Part shown: positions 4,621-20,351 of the stretch, in pieces
Position numbering within the stretch: the first letter of the stretch is position 1
Layout: each line of letters opens with the position of its first letter
From: a virus
IMG/VR virus record: IMGVR_UViG_3300023284_001866
Coordinates: 1-20,351 of that record
Length of the DNA: 20,351 nucleotides
Reading direction: 5' to 3' (one strand)
Position numbers and translations under genes: made by a program
Notes under the pieces: model-generated
What the model saw: the letters and a program-made list of their open reading frames with translations, nothing else
Databases searched by the model: none
Told to the model about the DNA's origin: nothing

Positions 4621-4632
4621 ATCCAGTACACC

Positions 4633-5607
4633 TTAGTTGGTGATGCCCGAAGCGCAGGCGAGACCCAGCTCAGAGAACAAGGCGAGACCAGCGTACCACT
4701 TTACGCGCCACACACGCTCGTCCTTCTCGAAGTGAGTTCCAACATCTTCAACAACCACGCCAGCCGCATTCGCAGCGGTCAGGCCAGCGATACCATGCTG
4801 ACGGCCACCTTCGTCGAGCGTACCCGCGAAGAAAGTCGTTGCAGTGGTCGTTGAGCCCTGCGTCTGGTCAATCGGCAGGTAGTCGTTGCGGAAGATTGGC
4901 ACACCGTTATAAACGGGAACGGTCTTACCAGAAGGCAGCTCCAAAACTTCGTTGATACCCGCACCACCCAAAGCGCGAAGCAGAGCCTTGAAGGCCCGGA
5001 TCGTGCGCTTGTGCATGATGTAGTAGTCAACGTCGCCGTCCTTGTCCACAACGAGGTCAGTAACCTCGTCCATGGTCTCGAACGATAGAGCGTCGCCGTT
5101 CGCAGCCGTTGCGGCAACTGTCTGAGCAGATGCACACAGGGATACGATACCAGGGAAAGTCTCGTTCGTACCGTCGCCGTTGACGAGCATGTCCTGATAC
5201 TTACGACCGGCAGACTTCGCCTTAGACCCGATCTGGGTCGCGGTCTGGTCGTTGCCGTCGCTGGAGCGGGTTGCCTGAATCAGGCCGTTCACCTCGGCGT
5301 CACCCATGATGGTCGTCAAGGATGCGGTTACTTCGGTGAAGGTAGCTGCGTTCTTAGCAGCCTGTCGCTCAGCTAGGTTGGAGCCTCCTGAAGCGGTAGA
5401 ACCAATAACACCATCGGTGTCACCGATACCAACCGTCGCAACAGGACCCAATAGGGCCTCGCGGTTGTACTTGAGGGCGTTACCGTCAATACCGTCGAAC
5501 GGGATAACCTCGAAGAAACGGTTGACGGTGATGATGCTCTCGATCACACCGGCAACTAACTCGTTTAGGCCAAGCTTGGCGCTTTCGGCCAGGGTTACGG
5601 AAGCCAT
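4633..5607 (-). CDS. Major capsid protein (HK97-fold type)
   Basis: A 324-residue protein beginning MASVTLAESAKLGLNELVAGVIE. The segment VNRFFEVIPFDGIDGNALKY resembles the start of many capsid proteins. A GDAEVNGLIQATRSS stretch and long helix are followed by a central DYYIMHKRTIRAFKALLRALG segment and a conserved-looking VPVYNGVPIFRNDYLP strand. The C-terminal part has GLTAANAAGVVVEDVG and WRVKWYAGLALFS. Length, composition and position directly after a scaffold-like gene all fit an HK97-fold major capsid protein. It has its own promoter (5744-5772) and a GAGGAG ribosome site 9 bases before the ATG, consistent with high expression. Confidence 0.85.
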   Translation of the reverse strand: MASVTLAESAKLGLNELVAGVIESIITVNRFFEVIPFDGIDGNALKYNREALLGPVATVGIGDTDGVIGSTASGGSNLAERQAAKNAATFTEVTASLTTIMGDAEVNGLIQATRSSDGNDQTATQIGSKAKSAGRKYQDMLVNGDGTNETFPGIVSLCASAQTVAATAANGDALSFETMDEVTDLVVDKDGDVDYYIMHKRTIRAFKALLRALGGAGINEVLELPSGKTVPVYNGVPIFRNDYLPIDQTQGSTTTATTFFAGTLDEGGRQHGIAGLTAANAAGVVVEDVGTHFEKDERVWRVKWYAGLALFSELGLACASGITN

Positions 5608-5743
5608 AATTGATTTCTCCTCTGCGTCCGTGTTGAATCAGGGTACCGGCCTGAGGAGAAGCCTCTCGCTTCCGTTATAACCTCGTGATCTTCTGAACAA
5701 GCATCACGCCTATTCAGAGTCACACCGAAAGAATTTCAGGGAT

Positions 5744-5772
5744 AGTATCTCAGGGAAGAAACAGGTTGTCAA
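5744..5772 (-). promoter_or_regulatory. Promoter for the major capsid gene
   Basis: On the minus strand, TTGACA (5767-5772) and GATACT (5744-5749) are separated by exactly 17 bases. The -35 box overlaps the last codons and stop of the scaffold gene. The predicted transcript has a leader of about 130 bases before the capsid ATG at 5607. The -35 is perfect; the -10 matches 4 of 6. Confidence 0.6.
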
Positions 5773-6635
5773 CCCCCTGGAAGCGTGCTACCCCCGCGTC
5801 CGTCTACCGCTTGACCTTTCGTAAGGCCAATGGAGATTTTCTGTTGGGAAGATAAGTTGTCCATGTTCTGCTGAGAACCGGGACGTTGTGTGGATCGGCT
5901 CATGGACCCAGGCGTAGTGCCTGACCCGTTAGGCGCTTCACTTTCGAATGCGCGTCCGAACCTATCTTGGGTTTTCATTTCAGCAACGAGGCCACCGACG
6001 CCTAAGAAGCCGCCAGCGGAATCGAGACGTGCATCACCCTGGGCATCCAGGACCGTCACGCCGTAGTCTCCGCTATCCTTCCGCACCATCTTGCACGCGG
6101 CAAGTACGTGGGGCAGAAGGAGGTCGATAGAGCCCTTATGTTCTGCGAGGGCACGGGAAGCTGCATCGGAAATCAGATGCTTGGACAGAGCACCGCGCAT
6201 TTCTGCCAGCTCCCCATCCTTGGTTTCAGTGACAGCCGCGACACGCCTATCGGCCTCCGCGTTCACCTTCTCCATATTGATCTTGATTTCCTTGCCACCT
6301 TTGATCTGTTCCTGGAGGTTATCCACGAACGCTTTCAGTGCAGCCGTCATGCCGTCGTCACCAGCCTCCAGGCCGACAGACAGTGCAAACTCGTCGATTG
6401 CCTTGGAGGCAAGCCGACGTTCCGCATTCTCATCTGTGACCTTTTTCTTGTCGTTACGCACGCCCAATAGGGACTCTTGGTTACCGAGCAAATCGGCAAC
6501 GATACCCATTGAGGAAGGAAGCAACGTGAACTTACCAGCGTTGTCACCTTCGCCTTCGCCGTACAGACCACGGTACTTCTCAGGAACGCCGTTGATGTCC
6601 TCGACCGTGGTGTTATTCTTGAAAGTGAACTCCAT
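5769..6635 (-). CDS. Putative scaffolding protein, 288 aa
   Basis: The protein starts MEFTFKNNTTVEDINGVPEKY with the VPEKYRGLYGEGEG feature often seen at the start of phage scaffold proteins. A charged, coiled-coil-like helical region covers about 100-155 (LQEQIKGGKEIKINMEKVNA, then ADRRVAAVTETKDGELAEM). A QDRFGRAFESEAPNGSG motif and a Ser/Gly/Gln-rich disordered tail follow. This is the usual architecture of head scaffolds, which assemble with and then leave the capsid. The start at 6635 is supported by GAGGAGG 5 bases upstream; the longer frame from 6674 has no such site. It lies immediately upstream of the capsid gene. Confidence 0.75.
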   Translation of the reverse strand: MEFTFKNNTTVEDINGVPEKYRGLYGEGEGDNAGKFTLLPSSMGIVADLLGNQESLLGVRNDKKKVTDENAERRLASKAIDEFALSVGLEAGDDGMTAALKAFVDNLQEQIKGGKEIKINMEKVNAEADRRVAAVTETKDGELAEMRGALSKHLISDAASRALAEHKGSIDLLLPHVLAACKMVRKDSGDYGVTVLDAQGDARLDSAGGFLGVGGLVAEMKTQDRFGRAFESEAPNGSGTTPGSMSRSTQRPGSQQNMDNLSSQQKISIGLTKGQAVDGRGGSTLPGG

Positions 6636-6732
6636 GTCATCCTCCTCTGGAGCTGGTAAAAGCGTTCCGTCCATATAGGCTCACCCCATATGCACCAGCC
6701 TTTACACATACAGCTTCACGCTGCACATAGTT

Positions 6733-6760
6733 AAAATACGCTAACCTACCGTCTTGTCAA
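6733..6760 (-). promoter_or_regulatory. Promoter upstream of the scaffold and capsid genes
   Basis: On the minus strand a perfect TTGACA (6755-6760) is separated by 16 bases from TATTTT (6733-6738). It lies in the gap between the exported-protein gene (stop at 6763) and the scaffold gene (start 6635), leaving a leader of about 90 bases. Confidence 0.6.
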
Positions 6761-6762
6761 GC

Positions 6763-7176
6763 CTATACGTCATCCCCTGGTACACTCCTAGGAGAGAGCC
6801 AAGTGAAACCTTTCTGTTTATGACTGTCCGCGAAGCGCCAAATCTCAATGACCTCTCCGTCAACCGATGTGAAGGTCCATAGCTTTTCTAGCAGTATGCC
6901 CCTAACTGCCCGGACACCCTGAGCAAAGTGTTCTGGAATGCGAGCGTCCCAACAAGGGGTGTCCCTGCTAATCCATTCGGCATACCCTTCCCCACCCTCG
7001 CGCGTAACAATATCGCTCATATCCCGAACCAATTGCTCGTCTGTACTGTTGCAATAGGCCCCGACTACGACCTTATCACCAGCTACCCACTTAGGATGGT
7101 CAGTAGCAGAAGCCGCACTTGTGCTGCCAATCAGCATGAACAAACCTAAAATAGAAACAGCAATCTTTTTCCACAT
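6763..7176 (-). CDS. Exported protein of unknown function, 137 aa
   Basis: The N terminus is a textbook signal peptide: MWKK, then a hydrophobic core (IAVSILGLFMLIG) and a STSAASA cleavage region (probably after residue 24). The mature part of about 113 residues is soluble and has two cysteines (Cys42, Cys75) that could form a disulfide in the periplasm. It contains an EWISRDTPCWDARIPEHFAQ stretch and several Trp. It has a good AAAGGAG ribosome site. Virion operons rarely contain secreted proteins, so this could be a moron gene that changes the host envelope, or a lysis or exclusion factor. No family is recognised. Confidence 0.75.
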   Translation of the reverse strand: MWKKIAVSILGLFMLIGSTSAASATDHPKWVAGDKVVVGAYCNSTDEQLVRDMSDIVTREGGEGYAEWISRDTPCWDARIPEHFAQGVRAVRGILLEKLWTFTSVDGEVIEIWRFADSHKQKGFTWLSPRSVPGDDV

Positions 7177-7193
7177 AATGGAACTCCTTTAGG

Positions 7194-7412
7194 TTACCAA
7201 GGACCGTGGCCATAGCGGGGTTTCGCATTGGCGATGGCCTTGTCGTAGTTGGCCTTAAAATCTGGATCTTTTTCCATATGCCGGTGGATGGTAGTCGTAC
7301 TCTCGCCCGACATGTTAGCTGCGTTTCGCTCGTTGTAACCGTTCTGGATTGCAGCCAGAAACTTCACAGTCCAGCCTGGACGTAGCTTGCATTGGTTGAG
7401 GGAATTGCTCAT
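7194..7412 (-). CDS. Small helix-turn-helix protein, TerS N-domain-like, 72 aa
   Basis: A 72-residue protein with the pattern WTVKFLAAIQNGYNERNAAN followed by MSGESTTTIHRHMEKDPDFK and ANYDKAI. This matches the helix-turn-helix plus trailing helix found at the N terminus of many phage small terminase subunits: a helix, N/A-rich turn, S/T recognition helix, and 'kDPdF...yd.A'. It lacks the C-terminal part of such proteins. Its ATG at 7412 has GAGGAG about 10 bases upstream, and it follows a full-length TerS-like gene by 3 bases. It may be a reduced paralogue acting as a DNA-binding regulator. The TerS relation is by pattern only. Confidence 0.7.
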   Translation of the reverse strand: MSNSLNQCKLRPGWTVKFLAAIQNGYNERNAANMSGESTTTIHRHMEKDPDFKANYDKAIANAKPRYGHGPW

Positions 7413-7415
7413 TGT

Positions 7416-7955
7416 CTAGTCACTCCTCTTAATCCGGTTCATCTGATTCTCAACTGGCTTGGCCTCGATGGTGATCGTCTTCTGTTGATCGTGCATTAGG
7501 ACTGCACTCTGCTCCCACTTTTCCTCGCTCTTAGCGGTCATGGGGAGGACGGCAATACCGAAGTTGATATTCGTGTCACCGCCGCGCGCATTCTCTCGAT
7601 ACACACCGGGCTTCAAACCACGCAGGACGAACATCAGCAACGTGTCCGAATAATTGGTCTTGTAGCCAGCCACCTCACCCTTGTAAAACACGGGCTCAAG
7701 TACGCCCTCTGTGGCACGCCGGATCGCCTCTGCCTCCAGAACGTGGGCCGCCGCCTCCAAAGCTTCATCCCATGCCTCAGCGAACTCCTCGTCATTGCGG
7801 CGGAACTTCTGGAAAGTAGATGTGTCTGTATGGCCACAAGCGCGTGCAGCCTCAGCCACCTTGCCAGTCTTAGCCAGGATACTCAGGAACACATTCCGCT
7901 TCTTCTTAGCGAGAACCACTCGGCTGTGCTTGTGCTTTGCGAGGCTCTGAGCCAT
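7416..7955 (-). CDS. Small terminase subunit-like HTH protein, 179 aa
   Basis: The N-terminal part (about 22-67) has a helix-turn-helix with FLSILAKTGKVAEAARACGH, then STFQKFRRNDEEFAEAWDEA. This is the usual DNA-binding pattern of phage small terminase subunits. After a helical ALEAAAHVLEAEAIRRATEG comes FYKGEVAGYKTNYSDTLLMF and a VLRGLKPGVYREN oligomerisation-type tail. Small terminases form rings that recognise packaging sites on phage DNA and hand it to TerL. This one is oddly placed far downstream of TerL, while another TerS-like pair is immediately upstream of TerL. Either could be the working packaging subunit. Confidence 0.7.
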   Translation of the reverse strand: MAQSLAKHKHSRVVLAKKKRNVFLSILAKTGKVAEAARACGHTDTSTFQKFRRNDEEFAEAWDEALEAAAHVLEAEAIRRATEGVLEPVFYKGEVAGYKTNYSDTLLMFVLRGLKPGVYRENARGGDTNINFGIAVLPMTAKSEEKWEQSAVLMHDQQKTITIEAKPVENQMNRIKRSD

Positions 7956-7968
7956 CGTTCTATTCCTT

Positions 7969-8046
7969 CTACTTCTTTTTCTTGCCCTTGCGCTTACGCT
8001 TGATTTTTACCGGCCGGGCCTTGGGTGGAGGGGGATGCTTAGCCAT
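7969..8046 (-). CDS. Very basic 25-aa peptide
   Basis: ATG at 8046 to TAG at 7969 encodes 25 residues, MAKHPPPPKARPVKIKRK followed by RKGKKKK. Thirteen residues are Lys or Arg and five are Pro. An AAGGAAGG ribosome site lies about 7-8 bases upstream, and the start overlaps the end of the preceding gene. The composition suits binding to nucleic acid or to acidic virion proteins, possibly inside the capsid. No family is known to me. Bias and ribosome site support it, but the length is very short. Confidence 0.55.
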   Translation of the reverse strand: MAKHPPPPKARPVKIKRKRKGKKKK

Positions 8047-8275
8047 GGTTCGTACCTTCCTTGACGTGTCTCACAATCTTTGGAAACCCTCCCTCTTCTA
8101 TTTCAGGAGGATCTTTTCTCTCACCACCGTCCGGATCTTCTTCTTCGTCATCCGTGTCGATATCCACCGTCACAAACATCTTGCCTCCGGTGATGTGAAC
8201 TCCAAATACATCACCGACTTCGTTGCCGTCCACATCCTTGATTTTTGCATTCATGAGCATCGACAGCATGTCCAT
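8039..8275 (-). CDS. Small acidic protein after the portal, 78 aa
   Basis: A 78-residue acidic protein beginning MDMLSMLMNAKIKDVDGNEV, with a strand-rich GVHITGGKMFVTVDID and a run of Asp/Glu (TDDEEEDPDGGER). Its ATG directly follows the portal stop codon (TAAATG). It overlaps the basic 25-aa ORF by 8 bases. The opposite charges of these two neighbours could allow interaction, which is speculation. Function is unknown. Confidence 0.75.
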   Translation of the reverse strand: MDMLSMLMNAKIKDVDGNEVGDVFGVHITGGKMFVTVDIDTDDEEEDPDGGERKDPPEIEEGGFPKIVRHVKEGTNHG

Positions 8276-9826
8276 TTACGTGTCCTCCATGTCACGTGGT
8301 GTGCCCGACTTGTCAGGTGGCGTGGCATTCGGAGCCTTAGCACCTGGAGCACCATCGGGTGCGGTCGGATCAAACGTACCCGGAACCTGTGGCTGAAGTG
8401 GTTTCAACTCCTTGTCTTCGAGCTGAAGCTGTATAAAGTCCTCTTCGAGATCGTAGTCGTCAGATAGAACACCCAGGCGCTTCGCCTCCTTAACGACTGC
8501 TTTTCGACTAATATCCTTGTCCGCACGGAGCGACTTGAGGAAGTCGAGACCGAACTTGTCAGCGTCCTCAGGACCGAAGTCATTCAGGATGGTGACGGTG
8601 CCCCCCTCCGCCTGGTTCAGCCATGTGGCGTGAATGCGAAGTGCGTTATTCACACTGTCGATAAAGCGGTTGATCATGTCCTGAAGAGGAGTAATGCTCT
8701 CTGCGCTATCAAGTGCCCTACCCGTAGCTGTCTCATTGCCGGGCATCTTCTTGAGGAACGTAGAGCCGTACGCCTCCATAGCCTTTTCGAGAGATTCCAA
8801 CTCTCTCCATCCGCTCTCGATGGACTTGCCGGTATGCTCAACGTAGTAGAAACGCCCGTTCGGGTCCTTAGTCGCGAGTAGCTGGCGGGGACCAATCCTC
8901 ATTGTGGTTCCCGACTGATCAGTTGCTCCAGCAACCGCCAACATAGGGAACCGAGCAACCGTCAGGACATTGATCTGATCCGACATGGATTGCCAATGCC
9001 GAATGTTCATGAAGGCGAGGTCTTCCAGAGGAGGCTTCGACATCAGGAAACTATTGCGCTGGCTGTAGAACGTTATGATCGGTATGAAGTTGATACCGGT
9101 TTCACCCTGCTCAATGATAATCCACTTTTCCTTCTTGCCCTTCTGCTTAACCAACTGCCAGACTTGGAAGAAACCGGGCATCAACACACGGATACGCTCA
9201 TGGATCACCTCGGCAAAGCCGACACGCTCAATCACGTTTTCCCGCAGCCGAACATGTGTGAACCACTCGCGCAACTCTTTTGTCTGAGGATCAATCACAA
9301 TTTCGGCCTCAGCGAAAATCATGTTCTCAGGCTCAATCCTGATCCAGAATGGACGGCGGCCATCAGCTCTATCGTCAGCCAGCGTGAGGGGCATAGCATC
9401 GGGATTCATCTGTGGCATATCCACCATGACATGGCACATGCCTTTGGCCAGCCCACACCGGAACCAGTCCCGGCAGAAGGTGGTGATGTCGTTGCCCTGG
9501 AGGTCGATGTTCGTAGCTTGCTCGACCATATCCTCAGGCACATCATTGTTTAGCTTCACGGGGTCTGAGAAGGGACGCCCAACAAAATGATCGAGAGTGA
9601 TCTCCATCGCGTTGAAGAGGACATTAACGTGCAGACGCTCGTTGTAATTATCGTCGCTCTCCTCAGCATGCTGCGGCAGGTACTCGCCAGCGGCGAACCG
9701 CATAGCCTTGGTTCCGCCCAGCAGAGTTTCGATCATAACCCAACTGCCGATCATCTCGTCCCATGCCAAGGAAGTCGTTGAAGGATCACTAGGGTCCTTG
9801 TTGTTTATAGTTCCGTGCTGTGCCAT
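8276..9826 (-). CDS. Portal protein (DUF4055-like)
   Basis: A 516-residue protein with N-terminal WDEMIGSWVMIETLLGGTKA and FAAGEYLPQHAEES. It has FNAMEITLDHFVGRPFSDPV, the wing-like CGLAKGMCHVMVDMPQ, and a WIRIEPENMI stretch. Then come FIPIITFYS, a helix-rich region (KPPLEDLAFMNIRHWQSMSD), and a C-terminal ATGRALDSAESITPLQ with a disordered Pro-rich tail. I recognise this order as the DUF4055 group of phage portal proteins, which form the dodecameric channel through which TerL pumps DNA. It lies two genes downstream of TerL, as expected. Confidence 0.85.
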   Translation of the reverse strand: MAQHGTINNKDPSDPSTTSLAWDEMIGSWVMIETLLGGTKAMRFAAGEYLPQHAEESDDNYNERLHVNVLFNAMEITLDHFVGRPFSDPVKLNNDVPEDMVEQATNIDLQGNDITTFCRDWFRCGLAKGMCHVMVDMPQMNPDAMPLTLADDRADGRRPFWIRIEPENMIFAEAEIVIDPQTKELREWFTHVRLRENVIERVGFAEVIHERIRVLMPGFFQVWQLVKQKGKKEKWIIIEQGETGINFIPIITFYSQRNSFLMSKPPLEDLAFMNIRHWQSMSDQINVLTVARFPMLAVAGATDQSGTTMRIGPRQLLATKDPNGRFYYVEHTGKSIESGWRELESLEKAMEAYGSTFLKKMPGNETATGRALDSAESITPLQDMINRFIDSVNNALRIHATWLNQAEGGTVTILNDFGPEDADKFGLDFLKSLRADKDISRKAVVKEAKRLGVLSDDYDLEEDFIQLQLEDKELKPLQPQVPGTFDPTAPDGAPGAKAPNATPPDKSGTPRDMEDT

Positions 9827-9856
9827 CCTGTTGCGTCCTCTAGTAGATTAGGCGAA

Positions 9857-10126
9857 TTATCTGTCACCGCCGAGCAGCAAGTCAATCCCCTCAGATAGAT
9901 CGGTCTCATCGGCCTCATCCGGAAATTCCTCCGGTGCACTTGGCTGCTCCATGTTGACTACATCGTCATTCACCACCACTCCGTCGAACGTCTTGCTCGA
10001 TTCGTAGCCGTTCTGGCCGACCGCATAGAATGCTAGCCGGTCATGCTCGTCTGTGCGAGAAACCAGCTTCACTTGAGTGTGACCCTGGCGCAAACACTCT
10101 CTTAGGAAATCTTCAAACGTATTCAT
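9857..10126 (-). CDS. Hypothetical phage protein, 89 aa
   Basis: The ORF is counted from ATG 10126, which lies 6 bases after GAGGAG and overlaps the stop of the upstream 35-aa ORF (TGATG). The protein starts MNTFEDFLRECLRQGHTQVK and has a strand segment LAFYAVGQNGYESSKTF. Its acidic tail is rich in Glu and Asp. It is soluble, has no signal peptide and sits between TerL and portal. The acidic tail might allow binding to a basic partner. No family is recognised. Confidence 0.75.
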   Translation of the reverse strand: MNTFEDFLRECLRQGHTQVKLVSRTDEHDRLAFYAVGQNGYESSKTFDGVVVNDDVVNMEQPSAPEEFPDEADETDLSEGIDLLLGGDR

Positions 10127-10233
10127 CAGAAACTCCTCTTGCACCAGTTGATGCAGTTAATGTCATATGCGACACATGCCGCACACCGGGTGTCCTTGAA
10201 GCGTCCCAGAAACCGACGCAAGAAACGCAGCAT
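10126..10233 (-). CDS. Cysteine-containing 35-aa peptide after TerL
   Basis: ATG at 10233 overlaps the TerL stop (TGATG) and has GGAGG 8 bases upstream. The stop at 10126 overlaps the next ATG in the same way. The peptide has an Arg/Phe-rich amphipathic start (MLRFLRRFLGRFKD) and then Cys17, Cys20, Cys27 and Cys31 (RCAACVAYDINCINWCK). The spacing CxxC-x6-CxxxC could bind a zinc ion. The coupling on both sides makes it likely to be translated. Function is unknown. Confidence 0.6.
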   Translation of the reverse strand: MLRFLRRFLGRFKDTRCAACVAYDINCINWCKRSF

Positions 10234-11807
10234 CAGAAAGTCCTCCGCGTCATGCCGGGCAGCTCCCAATTGAGCCGGTACCGGGTCATGTCCGCTAAAT
10301 GGTCCTCGTAATTGTCAGGAACCTCGTCGAGGTCCTTATCATCTCGTGGCATCGGAGGACACAGTTCTAGCCACCAAGCGCAACTGTTTGTAACGAAAAA
10401 GCCAGGATGCTCCCGACTCCCGTCAGGGTTCGGAATGGAGTTCTGAAGGTAGCTGCGGAGCATAGTCCACCCGCGCTTGCGAGAGCCGGATGACTTATCC
10501 GCCCTCTCCCATTCAATGCCTTCGTCTTCCATGTCATCGGCAGGACAACGCCCCGCACGATCCGTGTGTTTGTTGAAGATCTCGGTGTCGGCCGGACCCG
10601 GAAAGACCCTGGACCTAAGGCCCCGTGGGCTCCTAAGGCCCCATTCGATCTCGCGGTCCCGTATGCCAGCACCGATCTTCCGAGCGGAGAGACGTACGCC
10701 ACTGTTGTCCTTGCCGTCTGTCCCGTACCACTCATTCCAAAGGATGATATCACCTCGCACGTTTCCAATCAAGCGGTCGTTTACGATAATGGATTCGCCA
10801 TTGCTTTCAAGGAACCAACCGACCGCAAATGGGCTGCTCTGGCCATGGTCATAAGCGCGTGTAACTATCCATCCCCACGGGATTTTATCCACAGGGATAG
10901 AGGGTAGTACATGATGTCCCTTGTCGAAGATATCATCAATCATGCCGCCAGCGGTGATGTCCCACAGACCCTCCAACCACGCCTGGGCCTGGGCGGGGTT
11001 AGCCGCCGCTTCGCGAACCTGCATCGGATACTTCGGCACATCGTGCAACAACAGAAAATTCTCAGAAAGAGTGCTGTGAATTGCTACACGAGGCATTTCA
11101 CCTGGCTTATTTATAACGCGGCCACGCATATGAGGTAACTCGAACCGGCGCTTCACCCAGTTGTGACCAGGGCCATACGGGTTAGTGGTTGAACGCACGC
11201 GACACGGTACCCCCGGCTTCGGTGGGCGACAGCACGAGAACATCATCTTGTACGCTTTGTCATTTGCCCACTGCGTTAGCTCCTCCCAACCAATCCAAGG
11301 ATACTCATGCCCGTGATACTCGCCGTAAGAGCGTTCGTCTTCCATGTGGCGCAGCAAAAGTGCTTCACCCGTGGGCCAGACCGCCTGGTAGTCAGCCTTG
11401 CTCTTGAGGAACCGGAAGCCTGGATATAGGGATGTTAAAAGGGCTTCAATCTTGCGCACTACGTCGTCGAGATCGCCCAATTTCTGGCGGAACATAACGC
11501 CGCGCCATGCCTTGCCGTAACCCTTACCGACTTCTTTGGTAAAATCCATTATCAAGGATAGTGTTTTACCACCACCGCGCGTCCCCTCGTATAACGCCTC
11601 AAAGACGGGACATTCCAGAAAAGTGTACTGCGAGCCTGGCAGAGGCATCCATATCGGCTTATCAACCCTGCCGTTTTCGTAGGTAACCTGCGGCTCCCAT
11701 ACAGACTTTTCGCCGTCATCGTAATCACGGAGAAACCATGCCATCTCGTTGCCTACACTGTCTGCGGCCACGACACGCTTCTCTAGGATTGTGAATTCCT
11801 TAGCCAT
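10233..11807 (-). CDS. Terminase large subunit (packaging ATPase-nuclease)
   Basis: A 524-residue protein. The ATPase domain shows a Walker A-like GTRGGGKT at 75-82, a Walker B WIGWEE at 171-176 with the catalytic Glu, and the coupling motif STTNP at 206-210. The nuclease domain begins around residue 317 with AYDHGQSSPFAVGWF, whose Asp320 fits the first metal ligand of the RNase H-like fold. The protein drives ATP-dependent DNA packaging into the prohead through the portal and cuts the concatemer. Its ATG overlaps the upstream gene by 8 bases (ATGGCTAA), and its stop is coupled to the next small ORF. Length is normal for the family. Confidence 0.95.
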   Translation of the reverse strand: MAKEFTILEKRVVAADSVGNEMAWFLRDYDDGEKSVWEPQVTYENGRVDKPIWMPLPGSQYTFLECPVFEALYEGTRGGGKTLSLIMDFTKEVGKGYGKAWRGVMFRQKLGDLDDVVRKIEALLTSLYPGFRFLKSKADYQAVWPTGEALLLRHMEDERSYGEYHGHEYPWIGWEELTQWANDKAYKMMFSCCRPPKPGVPCRVRSTTNPYGPGHNWVKRRFELPHMRGRVINKPGEMPRVAIHSTLSENFLLLHDVPKYPMQVREAAANPAQAQAWLEGLWDITAGGMIDDIFDKGHHVLPSIPVDKIPWGWIVTRAYDHGQSSPFAVGWFLESNGESIIVNDRLIGNVRGDIILWNEWYGTDGKDNSGVRLSARKIGAGIRDREIEWGLRSPRGLRSRVFPGPADTEIFNKHTDRAGRCPADDMEDEGIEWERADKSSGSRKRGWTMLRSYLQNSIPNPDGSREHPGFFVTNSCAWWLELCPPMPRDDKDLDEVPDNYEDHLADMTRYRLNWELPGMTRRTF

Positions 11808-12021
11808 TGTATTTCATGACTCTGTTGAGCATAAAATCAAGAAGAACATCCGAGTAGAGTTGCATCTCCCCCACCACAATTTCTTTGAGAACTATTTTGT
11901 GAATAGTACCCTCCGTAGCACGGCGTATGGCCTCCTCCTCCAGGAGTAAGAACTCAGCTTCTCTCTTTTGGATCAGGTCAATCAGATCAAAATCAGAAAT
12001 TTGATTAAAGTTCTCAGCCAT
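11800..12021 (-). CDS. TerS C-domain-like protein, 73 aa (second half of a split TerS?)
   Basis: A 73-residue protein starting MAENFNQISDFDLIDLIQK. Its EEEAIRRATEG followed by VLKEIVVGEMQLYSDVLLDF and MLNRVM parallels the C-terminal half of the 179-aa TerS-like protein at 7416-7955 (AEAIRRATEG, then YSDTLLMFVLRG). It has no helix-turn-helix of its own; that part is in the preceding gene, overlapping by 8 bases in another frame. Together the two look like a small terminase split into DNA-binding and oligomerisation halves. It overlaps the TerL start by 8 bases, so translation is coupled. Confidence 0.7.
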   Translation of the reverse strand: MAENFNQISDFDLIDLIQKREAEFLLLEEEAIRRATEGTIHKIVLKEIVVGEMQLYSDVLLDFMLNRVMKYNG

Positions 12022-12295
12022 GCCGCGCCTCTAACTGCTCGTAGGCAAGCGTGCGCGCGGCCTGGAGACGCTTTCGCACCTCAGCCTGAAGCTTCTCTTC
12101 CAAAAATTCTAGATAGCACTCAATGAATGAACGGTCGAACTTGATGTTCGAGCAACACAGATTGGTCAGCTCTTGTGAGTTCATGCCAGCACGCCGACAT
12201 GCTTTGTTCCAATCCCCATGTTCACGCATCTCGCGCAAAAATCGGTCGGGGCGAACGTCTACAACGTCTCCCATTTGGTCCTCCAGGCCCAGCAT
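12014..12295 (-). CDS. TerS N-domain-like HTH protein, 93 aa (first half of a split TerS?)
   Basis: The protein reads MLGLEDQMGDVVDVRPDRFL, then REMREHGDWNKACRRAGMNS followed by QELTNLCCSN and a helical FLEEKLQAEVRKRLQAARTL. The NKACRRAGMNSQEL part fits a helix-turn-helix as in small terminases. The protein ends after the linking helix with ARHG-stop, and the next ORF supplies the matching C-terminal domain. It lies directly upstream of the TerS/TerL pair as in classical packaging operons. The ATG at 12295 is used; a GTG at 12298 is equally open. The ribosome site is weak (GGACAG). Its promoter is probably at 12358-12386. Confidence 0.7.
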   Translation of the reverse strand: MLGLEDQMGDVVDVRPDRFLREMREHGDWNKACRRAGMNSQELTNLCCSNIKFDRSFIECYLEFLEEKLQAEVRKRLQAARTLAYEQLEARHG

Positions 12296-12349
12296 CACGC
12301 TGTCCAGCGGGGGCGTTACATCACGCGCAGCCCCAATTTGTCATCATCG

Positions 12350-12357
12350 TTAACCAT
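12350..12357 (-). repeat. Isolated copy of the ATGGTTAA motif at the terminase promoter
   Basis: On the minus strand ATGGTTAA occurs here, immediately downstream of the predicted -10 box (12358-12363) and upstream of the terminase genes. Ten more copies are clustered at 19520-19991. I noticed no other exact copy in the window. Confidence 0.5.
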
Positions 12358-12386
12358 ACTATTTCACAAAAGAGCCGGGTTGTCAA
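12358..12386 (-). promoter_or_regulatory. Promoter of the terminase/head operon
   Basis: On the minus strand a perfect TTGACA (12381-12386) is followed after 17 bases by AATAGT (12358-12363, 4 of 6 matches to TATAAT). It lies just downstream of the 117-aa gene's stop and about 60 bases before the first TerS-like ATG. Confidence 0.5.
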
Positions 12387-12893: not shown

Positions 12894-12967
12894 GGTGCGG
12901 TGGCAGAATGGCTATGCGCCAGGTTGCAACCCTGGTTTTAATGCTGGTTCGAATCCAGTCCGTACCT
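12894..12967 (+). tRNA. tRNA-Cys (anticodon GCA)
   Basis: A full cloverleaf is visible. The acceptor stem GGTGCGG pairs with CCGTACC (one G-T). The anticodon stem is CCAGG/CCTGG with loop TTGCAAC, giving anticodon GCA. The T arm is GCTGG, TTCGAAT, CCAGT. The discriminator base is T, but the next bases are CAT, so CCA is not encoded, unlike in the two tRNA-Gly genes downstream. An HNH cassette follows directly and its far side carries the missing TCCA. CCA would have to be added by the host enzyme. Confidence 0.93.
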
Positions 12968-12968
12968 C
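12961..12968 (+). repeat. Direct repeat CGTACCTC, copy 1 (tRNA-Cys 3' end)
   Basis: These 8 bases form the end of the tRNA-Cys acceptor strand plus the next base. An identical copy lies at 13411-13418, directly after the HNH stop codon. Confidence 0.8.
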
Positions 12969-13002
12969 ATTATCCTTGCCATATCAATTACGGAGGTAAA
13001 TG

Positions 13003-13410
13003 ATGAGCAAAGGAAATAAGAAAAAAGCCGCTGCTCTCGGAATGTCTTATGGGGCCGCAGCTAACAGACTCAGAAAGATGATTCTTTTCTCCTTGGTCTG
13101 TCGTCTGAAATTAAACGTTTGTTATCAGTGTGATAGTGAAATTCTCTCTGTGAATGATATATCCATTGAGCACAAGAATCCTTGGATTCAGGCGGATAAC
13201 CCGGTGGAGAGTTTCTTTGATCTGAACAACATAGCGTTCTCTCACTTGAGTTGTAACATAGGAGCCGCTTCTAAGCCAAATAAAAAGTATTTCACTGAAG
13301 AAGAAAAACACCGAGGTCAAATAAGAAGAAATAAAAAACGGTGGCAGTCTTTGGGGAAAGAAGAACAGCAGAAAATAAGACGAGAACAATACTTACGAAC
13401 AGGGAAATAA
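13003..13410 (+). CDS. HNH endonuclease inserted at the tRNA-Cys 3' end
   Basis: A 135-residue basic protein. The HNH core has the zinc knuckle CYQC (Cys40, Cys43), the catalytic-type IEHKN (55-59), Asn75 in FDLNNIAFS, and HLSCN (His81, Cys84). Lys/Arg-rich ends (MSKGNKKKAAA at the start, KRWQSLGKEEQQKIRREQ near the end) would bind DNA. The second ATG at 13003 is chosen because GGAGGT lies 5 bases before it, while ATG 13000 is too close. It is transcribed with the tRNAs. It is flanked by CGTACCTC repeats, so it is probably a homing-type mobile gene that targets the tRNA gene. Its AT-richer codon use differs from its neighbours. Confidence 0.88.
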   Translation: MSKGNKKKAAALGMSYGAAANRLRKMILFSLVCRLKLNVCYQCDSEILSVNDISIEHKNPWIQADNPVESFFDLNNIAFSHLSCNIGAASKPNKKYFTEEEKHRGQIRRNKKRWQSLGKEEQQKIRREQYLRTGK

Positions 13411-13418
13411 CGTACCTC
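13411..13418 (+). repeat. Direct repeat CGTACCTC, copy 2 (followed by CA, completing TCCA)
   Basis: It starts immediately after the HNH stop codon. It continues CGTACCTCCA, which is what the original tRNA-Cys 3' end with an encoded CCA would look like. Confidence 0.8.
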
Positions 13419-13466
13419 CAAGTTCCTTATCTCCTGGTTGGCCGAAAGGCTGGCTGGGAGGCCAAT

Positions 13467-13541
13467 GCGGATGTAGCTCAGTGGTAGAGCGTCTGGTTGC
13501 CAATCAGAAGGTCGAGGGTCCGAGCCCCTCTATCCGCTCCA
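13467..13541 (+). tRNA. tRNA-Gly (anticodon GCC)
   Basis: The acceptor stem GCGGATG pairs with TATCCGC. The D arm is GCTCAGTGGTAGAGC. The anticodon stem TCTGG/TCAGA encloses loop TTGCCAA, giving anticodon GCC. The T arm is GAGGG, TCCGAGC, CCCTC. Discriminator T and an encoded CCA end at 13541. Confidence 0.95.
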
Positions 13542-13607
13542 GTTTCCGGGAAGTGCATTGAGACTTATAAGACCGAAAGGGCTCTGCACTCCGTTTTCAC
13601 GATAAAT
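13542..13607 (+). other. Structured spacer between the two tRNA-Gly genes
   Basis: AGTGCA and TGCACT form a closing stem. Inside it lie GAG/CTC pairing, a CTTATAAG palindrome and a CCGAAAGG hairpin with a GNRA loop. A similar GCCGAAAGGC hairpin lies in the preceding spacer (13441-13450). It may be part of a longer structured transcript or just tRNA-processing signals. Confidence 0.45.
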
Positions 13608-13681
13608 GCGGCCTTGGCCGAGAGGTTAGGCGACAGGCTTCCACCCTGTTCACATCGGTTCGAATCCGATAGGCCGCTCCA
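13608..13681 (+). tRNA. tRNA-Gly (anticodon TCC)
   Basis: The acceptor stem GCGGCCT pairs perfectly with AGGCCGC. The anticodon stem ACAGG/CCTGT encloses loop CTTCCAC, giving anticodon TCC. The T arm is ATCGG, TTCGAAT, CCGAT. Discriminator T and an encoded CCA end at 13681. Confidence 0.95.
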
Positions 13682-13684
13682 AGT

Positions 13685-13908
13685 TTGGTCCATACCAAAG
13701 ACAGGGCTTAGTAGGGTCGCTACCAAAACTCCCTCGAAGGGATTCCTGGACCAATTCAAACTCAGTCCCGGCCCTTACGACCGGGTGGTGCCCCTTGCTA
13801 CAAGGGCAGAAGAATTGGGTGATCCTACCGAAAGGATGGGCCGCTATGCATGCGCAGGACTTACCTGCTTTGAAAAGCCCGTGAGATATGGCCACGTGGC
13901 GCCCAATT
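13685..13908 (+). ncRNA. Candidate structured non-coding RNA after the tRNA genes
   Basis: No convincing gene lies here, but stems are dense. TTGGTCCA (13685-13692) pairs with TGGACCAA (13747-13754); an alternative TTTGGT/ACCAAA hairpin (13684-13699) competes with it. Other hairpins are GTAG/CTAC, CCCGG/CCGGG (13768-13785), TGCCCCTTG/CAAGGGCA (13789-13808), ATCCT/AGGAT (13822-13837) and GCAGG/CCTGC (13854-13868). AATTGGG (13813-13819) pairs with CCCAATT (13902-13908), closing a second domain. Long structured phage RNAs near tRNAs are known (GOLLD, ROOL), but I cannot match this to either; it is much shorter. It could instead be an mRNA leader for the next gene. Confidence 0.5.
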
Positions 13909-13942
13909 TCAATTTCTTACATAAAGCTGAAAGGCGAAACCC

Positions 13943-14224
13943 TTGGATAATCTGAATATCAAGGGTATTCGTGACGACGAGCCGTTTCGCCATGGCAAGA
14001 AAAGCCGTGGCCGCAAGCAGTTCGTGCTTCAGACGCGCTGGGCTCCAGGCCCCAATTATCGAAAAGAGGCTATGGGCTGGCTATGGCGCAGTCTCAGAGA
14101 GTGGCACACTCACAGCCGCTATCATACCGAATCTGCGCGTGATCAGGCATATACCGCCCTGGTCAAAAAGGCTGAAGTCTGCCACCTGCGCGAATGGTCC
14201 TACATGGAATATAGGAAGGTGTGA
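13943..14224 (+). CDS. Hypothetical phage protein, 93 aa (TTG start)
   Basis: A 93-residue basic protein reading MDNLNIKGIRDDEPFRHG, then GRKQFVLQTRWAPGPNYRKE and AMGWLWRSLREWHTHSRYHT, ending MEYRKV. It has many Arg, Lys, Trp and Tyr and no membrane segment. The TTG at 13943 follows GAAAGG by about 8 bases. Another frame (GTG 13971) is open over the same DNA but its composition is poorer. The stop overlaps the next ATG, a good sign for coupled translation. Function is unknown. Confidence 0.6.
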   Translation: MDNLNIKGIRDDEPFRHGKKSRGRKQFVLQTRWAPGPNYRKEAMGWLWRSLREWHTHSRYHTESARDQAYTALVKKAEVCHLREWSYMEYRKV

Positions 14225-14409
14225 TGAAGATCTTCTGGGTTGAGGACTTCCTGAGCCGCGAAGTCATTGAGAACAAATACTATTCCACTCGCGAGGAAGC
14301 TGCCGCCCGCCGCAATGAGCTGGGTTACGGCCTTGTGAAGGAGTGGAAATCGCAGAAAGCCACAGGGAAGCTGGCCGAATGCCACAAGAAATGGGCCGAT
14401 CAGCCGTAA
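14224..14409 (+). CDS. Hypothetical small phage protein, 61 aa
   Basis: A 61-residue charged protein starting MKIFWVEDFLSREVIENKYY, then a helix STREEAAARRNELGYGLV, ending KKWADQP. The start TGATG overlaps the previous stop, with AGGAAGG 4 bases upstream. Its 3' end overlaps the 3' end of the minus-strand HNH gene by 10 bases (convergent). Function is unknown. Confidence 0.7.
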   Translation: MKIFWVEDFLSREVIENKYYSTREEAAARRNELGYGLVKEWKSQKATGKLAECHKKWADQP

Positions 14410-14864
14410 TATTTCAACATAGAATCCAACCAATTCCCTACCGCCAGTACTTCCTCAGCCGTGGCATCACACTTAATCATGTTAGCCCGGTTTGAAATAA
14501 TCATAACGTTTCCAGGTATATAACCCAAAGCGTTGTCGATTCGGTCTAAAGAAGGCGAGTTTCCTACGGGGAGACCTGCACAATCCCAATCTAAGACAAT
14601 ACCCAAAACAGGACATATATCTGGAAGTGGATTGATGTCATCTATCGTGATGGAGAAATCCATCTCTTTAAGCTTGGCACGCTTCTTGGCGCGATGCAGC
14701 ATCCCACGAGACTTTGCAACCCTTTGATTCTTGGCGTAACGAGTAGCCTGATCAATCTTCTTGCACGGCGTGCAATAGATGTCCAGCCGATCTCGGGTAG
14801 TGGCAGCCGGAGGAAACTGAGATGCATCCTTCACCTGCTTACAAATGTTACATCGTTTTTCCAT
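14400..14864 (-). CDS. HNH endonuclease (free-standing homing type)
   Basis: A 154-residue protein. Two CxxC pairs at the N terminus (Cys5/8 and Cys31/34) form a zinc-ribbon. A basic helical segment follows (AKSRGMLHRAKKRAK). The core has PDICPVLGI, SPSLDRIDN (catalytic-type LDRID, 106-110), and the characteristic GYIPGNVMIISNRAN (114-128) with AT-x-EE near the end. Such genes are mobile in phage genomes. The ATG at 14864 is chosen; a TTG at 14873 is also open. The ribosome site is weak. It lies at the end of the minus-strand accessory block and meets a plus-strand gene tail to tail. Confidence 0.9.
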   Translation of the reverse strand: MEKRCNICKQVKDASQFPPAATTRDRLDIYCTPCKKIDQATRYAKNQRVAKSRGMLHRAKKRAKLKEMDFSITIDDINPLPDICPVLGIVLDWDCAGLPVGNSPSLDRIDNALGYIPGNVMIISNRANMIKCDATAEEVLAVGNWLDSMLKYYG

Positions 14865-14942
14865 GCCATTCAACTATAATTCAAGTAGAAAATAGGACCG
14901 ACCCCTGCATCACACAGAAAATCGGCCCTGGAGGAGTTGACG

Positions 14943-17545: not shown

Positions 17546-17574
17546 ATTATACTCGATCATGCCGCCAAAGTCAA
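17546..17574 (-). promoter_or_regulatory. Strong promoter (TTGACT, 17 bp, TATAAT)
   Basis: On the minus strand TTGACT (17569-17574) and a perfect TATAAT (17546-17551) are separated by 17 bases. The block TTGACTTTGGCGGC at the -35 and the downstream GCGGAAATCAGCC nearly repeat those of the promoter at 19148-19176. It drives genes from 17514 leftward. Confidence 0.88.
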
Positions 17575-18095
17575 GAGAAAAGATACTTCCGCCAGGAGGT
17601 CCATTCATAGAGTTTGAAATGCCCGTAGATGTGAGCCGCTGCCACTGTCCAGAACCCCCATTCGCGCCGAGTGGCCTTACGCCAGACGAAAGTGGCCGTC
17701 CAGCCGTCAAATATCGCCTCTCGCCCCCACCAGGCTGTCGATCCGTCGTATCTCTCACACGTCGTCCAGCGATACCGAGCTGCGCCCTCCTGAATGTGGG
17801 CGTACTCGGCAGGCCGGAAATGCCAGCGAAACGCCTCCACCGCATTTCTCGCGGATCGACCCTCTCGTATGCGGTATCCATAAGGTTTCAGATCGAGCAC
17901 CCGCTCATAGTAGGTTTTTAGCGGGAAAGTCCAGAAATCGTAGGGGTGGTCGTGGAAGTCGCGGTCGTTGTCGCCCCGGTGGAAGAAGTGGAAATAGAGC
18001 TGGCCCCACCGCGTCTTTGGCGTCAATTTCACCCTGGTCAGGTAGCAGGTCGAATATTGGCCGTCCCGCCCGTATATCCGCTTGATCATGCTCAT
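17571..18095 (-). CDS. Cupin-like phage protein, 174 aa
   Basis: The protein starts MSMIKRIYGRDGQYSTCYLT. It has the phage cupin-type motif FHRGDNDRDFHDHPYDFWTF (38-57) with HxH (His48, His50), then LKTYYERVLDLKPYGYR, a RPAEYAHIQEG stretch with His100, and a C-terminal WRKATRREWGFWT. This arrangement (HDHP, then a later His) is common in small phage proteins that probably bind a metal in a double-stranded beta-helix; their substrate is not known to me. The ATG at 18095 overlaps the previous stop (ATGA). Frame upstream to 18251 overlaps the preceding gene and is not used. Confidence 0.75.
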   Translation of the reverse strand: MSMIKRIYGRDGQYSTCYLTRVKLTPKTRWGQLYFHFFHRGDNDRDFHDHPYDFWTFPLKTYYERVLDLKPYGYRIREGRSARNAVEAFRWHFRPAEYAHIQEGAARYRWTTCERYDGSTAWWGREAIFDGWTATFVWRKATRREWGFWTVAAAHIYGHFKLYEWTSWRKYLFS

Positions 18096-18322
18096 ATCTT
18101 GATCCCACTTCGACCCATACCACACCCACCACCCATGCGCTGGATGACCATTGTGCTCCCGTGCTGGTAAGCGGCCAACTCTTGGTTCGGGTACTGTACC
18201 CTCAGCGCCGCCACCGCATCCTCGAAGGAGACATTCTCTCGTCTGAAGCACACTGTGTCGTAGGGCTCCTTGATCTTTGAAACCTGGGCCAGATAGTCTG
18301 ATTGGTCACAAAAGATCTCCAT
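18092..18322 (-). CDS. Hypothetical phage protein, 76 aa
   Basis: Starting at ATG 18322: MEIFCDQSDYLAQVSKIKEP, then YDTVCFRRENVSFEDAVAAL and QELAAYQHGS. A GTG at 18334 is also open and lies just after GAGGAAA, so the true start is uncertain. The protein is soluble, and its 3' end overlaps the cupin gene by 4 bases. No family is recognised. Confidence 0.65.
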   Translation of the reverse strand: MEIFCDQSDYLAQVSKIKEPYDTVCFRRENVSFEDAVAALRVQYPNQELAAYQHGSTMVIQRMGGGCGMGRSGIKI

Positions 18323-18323
18323 G

Positions 18324-18560
18324 TTAAGGGCCACTTTCCTCTAGGGCGCTCTCCCGCGTAACAAGTTCAGCGGTGTACACCTCTTTCACTACCATGAACT
18401 TATTGGAGTTGGCTAGAGCCATTTTCTTGGCATATCTCTTGGCCTGATCCAGTGCTGGCCAGGGACCACCGATGCGATCCCAGGAAAATACATTGTCATC
18501 CACGTATCTGATTAGAACAAAAAACACCAGCTCACTCCTTGATTTGTGCCGTAGAACCAT
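18324..18560 (-). CDS. Hypothetical phage protein, 78 aa
   Basis: A 78-residue protein starting MVLRHKSRSELVFFVLIRYV, then GPWPALDQAKRYAKKMALAN and KFMVVKEVYTAELV. It has strand-helix-strand character. The ATG overlaps the previous stop (TGATG) and has GGAGGG 5 bases upstream. A GTG inside (after AAGGAG) is an alternative start. Function is unknown. Confidence 0.7.
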   Translation of the reverse strand: MVLRHKSRSELVFFVLIRYVDDNVFSWDRIGGPWPALDQAKRYAKKMALANSNKFMVVKEVYTAELVTRESALEESGP

Positions 18561-18856
18561 CAGTTCCCTCCTCGGTTGACGGAGTAGAAACTCAGGACTT
18601 CCCTCACTCCGGCCAGTCCAGTTTTGATTGACTCATGCAGCCAGGCACTCCTCACATCGTCTCTATCTAAATGGAGGAAATGCTCACAGAAGTTGTAGAG
18701 CTGAATATTGTCATTGGTGAACATCAGGGCCTCGTCACCGACTTCTGGCGCCGCAAAAGATACCTCCCCCATTTTGAGATACTTATAGTGGGGAGAGTCA
18801 TGCTCCAACCACTGCCCGGCCAGCGGCCCACCTATGCACATTCCCTCAAATATCAT
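18560..18856 (-). CDS. Hypothetical phage protein, 98 aa
   Basis: A 98-residue protein starting MIFEGMCIGGPLAGQWLEHD, then SFAAPEVGDEALMFTNDNIQ and HFLHLDRDDVRSAWLHESIK. The start 'GGPLAGQWL' followed by 'H' resembles small phage proteins of unknown function I have seen. It has GAGGAGG upstream, inside the end of the preceding gene, whose stop is one base before the ATG. Confidence 0.75.
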   Translation of the reverse strand: MIFEGMCIGGPLAGQWLEHDSPHYKYLKMGEVSFAAPEVGDEALMFTNDNIQLYNFCEHFLHLDRDDVRSAWLHESIKTGLAGVREVLSFYSVNRGGN

Positions 18857-18857: not shown

Positions 18858-19103
18858 TCATTCCTCCTCTAACAGCGCGACCCGAGCGACCAGGATCTTG
18901 AGAGAATAGTGGGAAAACAGCCGATCCTGCTCATACATGGCAATACGCTTCTCAATCTGGCGAATTTCTTCCCTCAAGATGGGGATGTCAGAATCAGCCT
19001 TTTTGATCCGATTTCGCCGGTCTTGCTGAAGCGTCTCCAGGGCCAGCACGACCTCAATGTTAGTCCTGTTCTCAGCTTCGATGATTACATCCGCTGTCAA
19101 CAT
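18858..19103 (-). CDS. Hypothetical coiled-coil protein, 81 aa
   Basis: Starting at ATG 19103: MLTADVIIEAENRTNIEVVL, then LETLQQDRRNRIKKADSDIP and a long helix ILREEIRQIEKRIAMYEQDR. Heptad-like spacing suggests a coiled coil. The ATG is about 10 bases after AGGAG; a TTG at 19124 is also open but lies upstream of that site. It is the first gene after the promoter at 19148-19176 and so probably early expressed. Function is unknown. Confidence 0.7.
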   Translation of the reverse strand: MLTADVIIEAENRTNIEVVLALETLQQDRRNRIKKADSDIPILREEIRQIEKRIAMYEQDRLFSHYSLKILVARVALLEEE

Positions 19104-19147
19104 ATCGTTTCGGCTCCTATGCAACGATTAAACGGCTAATTTCCGCG

Positions 19148-19176
19148 ATTATACGCCTTTTGGCCGCCAAAGTCAA
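19148..19176 (-). promoter_or_regulatory. Strong promoter (TTGACT, 17 bp, TATAAT)
   Basis: On the minus strand TTGACT (19171-19176) and TATAAT (19148-19153) are separated by 17 bases. It shares TTGACTTTGGCGGC and GCGGAAAT-AGCC blocks with the promoter at 17546-17574. It drives the accessory gene train. Confidence 0.9.
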
Positions 19177-19195
19177 TGAAAAAGTGAAACGATTC

Positions 19196-19237
19196 GTGAA
19201 AAACGTGAAAAACCGTTATTTGGCGTGAAAAACGGTT
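19196..19237. repeat. GTGAAAAAC repeats and AACCGTT dyad
   Basis: GTGAAAAAC occurs at 19196-19204, 19205-19213 and 19225-19233. AACCGTT (19211-19217) and AACGGTT (19231-19237) form an inverted pair. The block lies just upstream of the strong promoter, where an activator, UP-element or repressor site could sit. Confidence 0.6.
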
Positions 19238-19328
19238 AAAAAGGCGCCGATTCTCTGAAAACGGGTTTTTCGCGATTTTTGGCAGTTTTAGGGCGCCGCC
19301 AGCCGATTTTCTGCGAAAACGCTGTAAA

Positions 19329-19393
19329 ATGCCAAAATTGACATATTAGTCAATTAAACCCCCATAAAGTGCCATAATTGACGTTTTAGTCAA
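19329..19393. promoter_or_regulatory. Two 25-bp operator-like repeats with TTGAC/GTCAA dyads
   Basis: TGCCA, then AATTGAC, a spacer and TTAGTCAA occur at 19329-19353 and again at 19369-19393 (40-bp spacing). Each holds a dyad: AATTGAC/GTCAATT (19336-19355) and TTGAC/GTCAA (19378-19393). This looks like binding sites for a dimeric regulator. Confidence 0.6.
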
Positions 19394-19511
19394 GGGAGAA
19401 CGTAGGCCGCGAGGGTCAAAGCGTCTGGAGCGAAATATTCCAAAACTATATGCCGCTCGGGTCAAAGTGAGCTGCATAATAAAGAACGATATGAATCAGG
19501 GGGGATGGCCT

Positions 19512-19554
19512 GCCCCCCTATGGTTAATATCGGGTTTAACCATAGACGGGGGGC
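19512..19554. repeat. Long imperfect hairpin carrying two ATGGTTAA copies
   Basis: GCCCCCC (19512-19518) and GGGGGGC (19548-19554) flank TATGGTTAA (19519-19527) and its complement TTAACCATA (19536-19544). It is a 16-bp inverted repeat with a 3-base bulge. Confidence 0.8.
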
Positions 19555-19636
19555 GTTAACCATCTTTGTTAAGTATAGTTCTTAATACATATCAATAAAG
19601 ATCTATTAATATACATGGTTAATACTATTGCACACT

Positions 19637-19650
19637 GGCTGAATACTGCG
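19637..19650 (+). repeat. 14-bp inverted repeat, left arm
   Basis: GGCTGAATACTGCG is repeated as its exact complement at 19910-19923, bracketing the inner part of the ATGGTTAA array. Confidence 0.8.
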
Positions 19651-19779
19651 ATGCGTATGGTTAACACTGCATTAAGGATAACAAACATGGTTAACGCCGG
19701 GGCCGGAGGCCCTATGGTTAATGCCCTCCTCGCCCATAGGCACAGCTCAACCTTAATTCATATTTATTAACGCTTCGCT

Positions 19780-19798
19780 TTATGCGATAAACGCATAA
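19780..19798. repeat. Dyad TTATGCG-N5-CGCATAA
   Basis: Perfect 7-bp arms lie around a 5-base centre, three bases before a reverse ATGGTTAA copy. It is a possible protein-binding site. Confidence 0.6.
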
Positions 19799-19909
19799 TG
19801 TTAACCATGTCTATTAGCACACATTAATGGAAATCACCCGGCTAAGACAATGATATAGCATTAATAATCATTAATATAGAGGGTATGTGTGGCACGCATA
19901 AGCCAGAAC

Positions 19910-19923
19910 CGCAGTATTCAGCC
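19910..19923 (-). repeat. 14-bp inverted repeat, right arm
   Basis: CGCAGTATTCAGCC, exact complement of 19637-19650. Confidence 0.8.
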
Positions 19924-19991
19924 ATTCTTATGGTTAAAACCTGTAGTTAATACAGGTCTCTATGGTCCAAAGGGTTGAAATGTATGGTTAA

Positions 19992-20351
19992 TTTCGCCCC
20001 TCCAGCGGGGTATATCCAAGGCTGGTATATTATGCATTAGTCGCATAAGCCATTGTTCTATCATGTGCTATGCGCATATCTCACTATACCCTCACAGTCT
20101 CCGCCTATCAGTAGCCTTGCCCCATACGCGCACCATATGAGCCATCTATCCCCCCTAGGGCGCCCATACAGAGCGATAAGCCTCTAATCCCTGCCCAGGT
20201 GCCCCAATAGGAGCCCTTGCAGCCCTAGCACGCTGTGAGGCTCGCCATAGGTCAACGGGAATTCCCATATCGGCCAGGAGGGCGGAACGGGTTTTCTCAA
20301 TTGCCAGGTTTTATTCGCTCGAATAGATTTAATGCCCGGCAGTCTTTGCCT
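19992..20351. other. Remaining non-coding stretch to window end
   Basis: I see no convincing gene here. A short minus-strand ORF (20155-20268, 37 codons from ATG) has plausible composition but no ribosome site. Another minus frame is open from the window edge to about 20186. A few dyads such as GCCCCTCCAGCGGGG-like pairing near 19996 are present. The segment may continue the regulatory region or hold the end of an outside gene. Confidence 0.4.

Follow-up and report, generated by a model that had tools for sequence, protein, structure and literature searches.

In Alphaproteobacteria, the cell cycle and motility are under the control of the response regulator CtrA. Its full binding site is TTAA-N7-TTAA, and TTAACCAT represents a half-site or ungapped variant of this sequence (PMC3692519, PMC6180460, PMC11527210); in Caulobacter, half-sites located over the −10 element repress transcription and those near the −35 element activate it (PMC4287350). 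A 2022 study reported that phages follow the host cell cycle through CtrA, in the case of a few uncharacterised genes (PMC9437464). In Brevundimonas phage Delta and other phages, gaps or terminal repeats are dense in CtrA sites and are bound by CtrA, which represses a promoter in the Delta gap and activates promoters of phiCbK and Cp1R7A-A1; the authors of that study proposed that CtrA control delays lysis, an effect termed “lytic deferment” (PMC9437464). In addition, the repeat TGCGTTAACCAT in a gap of Sphingomonas phage vB_StuS_MMDA13 overlaps predicted CtrA sites (PMC7472734, PMC9437464).

The window analysed here is the whole virus record IMGVR_UViG_3300023284_001866, a 20,351-bp fragment in which exact copies of the word ATGGTTAA are clustered within 472 bases. 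The reverse complement of ATGGTTAA is TTAACCAT, and, as judged from sequence, the array and the associated operator set are probably CtrA half-sites that control transcription both where the module ends and at the promoter of the terminase operon. The array consists of the following elements.

19520–19991, both strands (7 +, 3 −): array of ten ATGGTTAA/TTAACCAT words in an AT-rich, gene-free region
19513–19550: hairpin with copies 1 and 2 in the stem (arms 19513–19527 and 19536–19550)
19520–19527, + strand: copy 1, left hairpin arm
19536–19543, − strand: copy 2, right hairpin arm
19556–19563, − strand: copy 3, TTAACCATCTTTGTTAA, with a second TTAA at +13
19615–19622, + strand: copy 4, of which the opposite strand reads TTAACCATGTATATTAA
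19657–19664, + strand: copy 5, whose TTAA at 19661 starts the sole exact TTAA-N7-TTAA of the array (19661–19675)
19687–19694, + strand: copy 6, inside the 16-mer AACAAACATGGTTAAC (19680–19695)
19714–19721, + strand: copy 7
19801–19808, − strand: copy 8, TTAACCATGTCTATTAG
19930–19937, + strand: copy 9; a small hairpin follows at ~19939–19958
19984–19991, + strand: copy 10

A preliminary description of this DNA had held that seven direct and three inverted copies of an 8-bp motif exceed chance, and dinucleotide-preserving shuffles of 19500–20000 bore this out, with a mean of 0.056 and a maximum of 2 copies of ATGGTTAA against the ten observed; in the same shuffles 4.7 TTAA were expected, and 20 are present. 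The motif search over the rest of the DNA that it had recommended was run on the window and returned one further copy only (12350–12357). All 11 copies are intergenic, and 10 of these lie inside the 472 bp, a count of half-sites in an incomplete genome. The AT-rich, gene-free surroundings and the inverted pair in a large hairpin, both noted in that description, were also confirmed: the GC content is 41% in 19501–20000 and ~53% overall, no ORF of at least 60 aa is found in 19140–20351, and the arms of the hairpin at 19513–19550 are 87% complementary and enclose a loop of 8 nt. One open-ended frame of 55 aa extends to the right edge, and the gene-free status applies leftward of and inside the region, because the record ends at 20351. 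The single-strand fold of the region has a z of −5.8. A 51-aa ORF at 19615–19770 was considered as a coding array of Met-Val-Asn repeats and was rejected, because the copies occur on both strands and stop codons lie between them. No nucleotide relatives of the array region were identified in the phage collection, the pattern of the first hairpin had no match in IMG/VR, and a search of Rfam returned tRNAs only. Several other elements were identified in or beside the gap.

19636–19650 and 19910–19924: arms, 259 nt apart, of a perfect 15-bp inverted repeat, TGGCTGAATACTGCG
19413–19466, + strand: two GGGTCAAA words, starting at 19413 and 19459, with no others in the window
19338–19353 and 19378–19393: two TTGAC-N6-GTCAA dyads, possible operators of another regulator
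19148–19176, − strand: sigma70-type promoter TTGACT-N17-TATAAT (11/12), serving the leftward gene block

Both arms of the 15-bp inverted repeat adjoin a copy of ATGGTTAA. The two TTGAC-N6-GTCAA dyads are positioned 40 bp apart in the DNA that separates the leftward promoter from the array, and share the context TGCCANAATTGAC; they are absent from the relatives tested. The promoter is situated between the gap and the ORF at 18858–19109, which is the first gene of the leftward block; the leftward genes begin at 19109 and form the left flank of the gap, whose right flank falls past the end of the record.

The array resembles published CtrA arrays, but half-sites appear to be its building blocks, because the full site TTAA-N7-TTAA occurs exactly once, approximately as expected from the density of TTAA (estimate 0.7); three more matches contain one mismatch. 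Exact full sites number 4–6 in the relatives G7, G4 and Delta. In the window, a second TTAA is more common at +13 (N9) than at −11, which is not the textbook spacing of CtrA, and the N9 spacing is only weakly significant once the number of spacings tried is allowed for. The N9-spaced TTAA pairs in 19556–19622 and 19934–19950 number 4 exact and 10 with one mismatch, including a run of 13-bp steps at 19556, 19569, 19582 and 19595. The form TTAACCAT-N5-TTA, likewise not of textbook spacing, is shared by the window with Delta and Caulobacter phages.

The position of the array was considered in relation to the genes of the phage, including the following.

4633–5607, − strand: major capsid protein, 66% to Bordetella phage MW2 and 52% to Brevundimonas phage Delta
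10233–11807, − strand: terminase large subunit (TerL), YuA/M6-like
12014–12298, − strand: 94-aa gene, the first behind the terminase-operon promoter, upstream of TerL
17571–18251, − strand: cysteine-dioxygenase-like protein

The terminase, portal and capsid proteins place the phage among the YuA/M6-like siphophages: their best cultured matches are in Bordetella and Pseudomonas phages (49–66%), and Rhodobacter and Brevundimonas phages provide more distant matches. Relative to the terminase gene, the array is located ~7.7 kb upstream, on the far side of the ORF that opens the leftward block (18858–19109). The protein encoded at 17571–18251 matches 11 phage records, 10 of which are alphaproteobacterial, an indirect hint at an alphaproteobacterial host. 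A pattern search of IMG/VR with the three proteins adjoining the gap (18858–19109, 17571–18251 and 18560–18856) returned no relatives. Two other routes to the host were set aside. Bacterial assemblies with TerL relatives proved to be metagenome bins of mixed phyla, of which 4 of 14 are alphaproteobacterial and the best match is in a Bacteroidota bin; and avoidance of GANTC, the CcrM site, was uninformative, because the motif is not less frequent in the window than in Pseudomonas phage M6. GANTC is strongly depleted in RcSimone-Hastad (MW677525; 4 vs ~320 expected) and Delta (MN862068; 48 vs ~485), moderately in the window and not at all in G4 or G7. Elsewhere in the window, a stretch at 12894–14873 with one tRNA-Cys gene, two tRNA-Gly genes and small ORFs, among them a weak match to HNH, separates a small-gene block from the terminase operon, and a GIY-YIG endonuclease gene is located at 1636–2196. 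Tail genes, which would bear on whether a pilus or flagellum is the receptor, as considered for the CtrA-site-dense (LPEG-type) alphaproteobacterial phages (PMC9437464), fall outside the window.

Comparable gaps are present in several relatives. The distantly related Brevundimonas phages Delta, Leszy and BabaJaga carry TTAACCAT and many TTAA in the gap beside the structural module, together with the GGGTCAAA words, and three uncultivated relatives (G4, G5 and G7) contain TTAACCAT arrays with dense TTAA located 7–12 kb upstream of TerL. G4 is a complete IMG/VR genome of ~92.9 kb, circular by a 157-bp end repeat, and its array lies inside a 2.1-kb gap that separates leftward from rightward genes; divergently transcribed modules also flank the gap in BabaJaga and Leszy, and the left-side layout of the BabaJaga gap (36421–37594) is the same as that of the window. 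A second cluster of TTAACCAT/AAGGTTAAC words is found in G4 (contig of L012) at 87018–87745, ~7.5 kb from the main gap. Delta is similar to the window in its TerL, portal and capsid homologs and in having its gap where the structural module ends on the terminase side, and the gap itself shares TTAACCAT, dense TTAA, the GGGTCAAA words and the 16-mer AACAAACATGGTTAAC. The two differ in composition, since AAGGTTAAC and full TTAA-N7-TTAA abound in the Delta array, which has four TTAACCAT among its many TTAA at the equivalent position, whereas the window has ten TTAACCAT and one exact full site; moreover, binding by CtrA has been demonstrated for Delta, whereas the sites of the window are known from their sequence. 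MMDA13, as compared by published descriptions, is alike in having a 1.2-kb GC-poor gap with TGCGTTAACCAT repeats between divergent modules, but differs in that the repeats are four imperfect direct copies.

The word was found to be absent from M6, RcRudolph, RcSimone-Hastad and the available parts of FP1 and V45iii, relatives that infect Pseudomonas, Bordetella, Variovorax or Rhodobacter; Loktanella phage pCB2051-A has one copy. Among the relatives fetched, all carriers of the word with a known host infect alphaproteobacteria, but the converse fails, since Rhodobacter is an alphaproteobacterium and yet its related phages lack the array. No family match to an OmpR-type regulator or to GcrA was identified in the complete relative G4; therefore, any CtrA-like factor would be supplied by the host.

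The distribution of the word extends to unrelated phages. The 16-mer AACAAACATGGTTAAC that contains copy 6 is present exactly in Delta and, within the terminal repeat, in the unrelated Caulobacter phages CcrRogue and CcrBL10. A scan of IMG/VR for AACAAACATGGTTAAC yielded 47 stretches, some of them expected by chance and several in large phage genomes, two of which (223,720 and 220,934 bp) correspond to CcrRogue and CcrBL10. The phiCbK-like Caulobacter phages share the exact AACAAACATGGTTAAC, and CtrA activates genes there (PMC9437464); they differ from the window in being unrelated and large and in having their sites in terminal repeats with many genes, under activation rather than repression. 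A further unrelated phage, L133 (IMGVR_UViG_3300010368_000237), whose terminase resembles those of alphaproteobacterial phages among others, contains 37 TTAACCAT and 39 TTAA-N7-TTAA in 14.8 kb; 24 of the 37 TTAACCAT form the 3′ half of an exact TTAA-N7-TTAA, with TTAA 11 bp upstream, and many are located shortly 5′ of an ORF. L133 has the densest CtrA-type region among the phages examined (1100–11500), with near-identical CGTTAACCCTTTGTTAACCAT elements preceding many small leftward ORFs and with 24-bp tandem repeats of TTAACCATGTTTGTTAAGGNGCCG. Because AACAAACATGGTTAAC is common to unrelated phages, a host factor fits better than a phage-specific initiator: on this comparison the word appears to track a host factor, and not an initiator, as would be expected of phage iterons.

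The preliminary description had favoured a phage replication origin whose iterons bind a phage initiator, an interpretation that the present evidence does not support and that is improbable. The clustering of direct and inverted repeats in AT-rich, structured and gene-free DNA is indeed shared with phage iteron origins, but iterons are regular, co-oriented repeats of ~17–22 bp, and the sites here are a short 8-bp word in mixed orientation and with irregular spacing, common to unrelated phages and also located singly inside promoters. No DnaA box (TTATNCACA) is found in 19110–20351, and no initiator gene is in view in a record that ends 360 bp to the right of the array. The analysis of GC skew advised in the preliminary description gave no decisive outcome: in Delta and BabaJaga the distance between the extremes and the gap is at least ~5 kb, which argues against an origin, and the minimum lies ~1 kb from the array in G4, which would favour one but is not decisive, because divergent transcription would give the same result. 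A related possibility is a phage origin gated by host CtrA, whose binding would block replication instead of, or in addition to, transcription. The Caulobacter chromosomal origin carries CtrA sites, and by this analogy the same sites, in a plausible origin position between the divergent modules of G4, could serve such a function; however, neither a DnaA box nor an initiator was found nearby, and the lone copies at promoters argue for transcription; a gated origin is considered unlikely. The other suggestion of the preliminary description, a regulatory hub of operators, is supported, given that the word equals the CtrA half-site, that the corresponding gap of relatives also contains it and that lone copies occur in core promoters.

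These lone copies include the one in the window outside the array.

12358–12386, − strand: promoter TTGACA-N17-AATAGT, preceding the terminase operon
12350–12357, − strand: 11th copy of the word, intergenic, directly downstream of this core promoter and ~50 bp from the start codon at 12298

The word in the terminase promoter is present at the aligned position in L009 (TerL 83%); TTGACA is aligned in L009, L010 and L011, the latter two without the word. Among 13 lone copies outside arrays in the window and its relatives, from which a Delta copy at 43371 and near-identical Brevundimonas duplicates were omitted, 9 have TTGAC within ~30 nt upstream vs 4% expected (p ~3e-10, a value that is optimistic because the list was drawn up after several copies had been noticed). 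The word also occurs 151–190 bp before the capsid gene in four lineages (166 bp in L009, 159 in G5, 190 in G7 and 151 in three Brevundimonas phages); the promoter of the window's own capsid gene contains no copy. Capsid and terminase promoters are not discussed as CtrA targets in PMC9437464, and a limited literature search found no such targets elsewhere.

Copies in a gap and in the core promoters of several genes resemble an operator network, and could thus be operators of a phage-encoded repressor or activator that recognises ATGGTTAA in the gap and at late promoters, in a manner similar to the stoperators of mycobacteriophage L5. We regard this as unlikely, since the word equals the host CtrA half-site, occurs in L133 and, with the exact 16-mer, in unrelated Caulobacter phages, and is missing from beta- and gammaproteobacterial relatives that have homologous structural genes.

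Control by host CtrA is thus the reading that we prefer. According to this model, the array sits in the gap found at the terminase end of the leftward structural module in a YuA/M6-like phage of an alphaproteobacterium; phosphorylated CtrA (CtrA~P) of the host would bind the array and the terminase-operon promoter (12350), and would thereby raise or lower phage transcription with the cell-cycle or motility state of the host. We infer binding of CtrA in the window phage, as well as the sign and the biological purpose of the control; at 12350, repression is more likely, because the site abuts the −10 element, and the most likely purpose is to let the phage adjust the timing of its gene expression to the host cell cycle. 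A broader proposal, which we put forward tentatively, is that CtrA directly controls late genes in a YuA/M6-like clade of phages of Alphaproteobacteria, with the gap array as the hub: half-sites would act in the core promoters of terminase operons and ahead of the major capsid gene, and packaging and capsid synthesis would wait for a particular stage of the cell cycle.

The gap with its CtrA sites would be a variant of the phenomenon reported in 2022, and the copies at late promoters are the part that would be new. An array with the appearance of iterons would be recognisable as sites of a host regulator through the comparison of unrelated phages. If the model is correct, the CtrA signal is exploited through a simpler half-site by an uncultivated branch within a large group of siphophages, and the sites at terminase and capsid promoters make the effect on the lytic cycle directly testable; direct control of late genes, if true, would identify a concrete target for the proposed “lytic deferment”.
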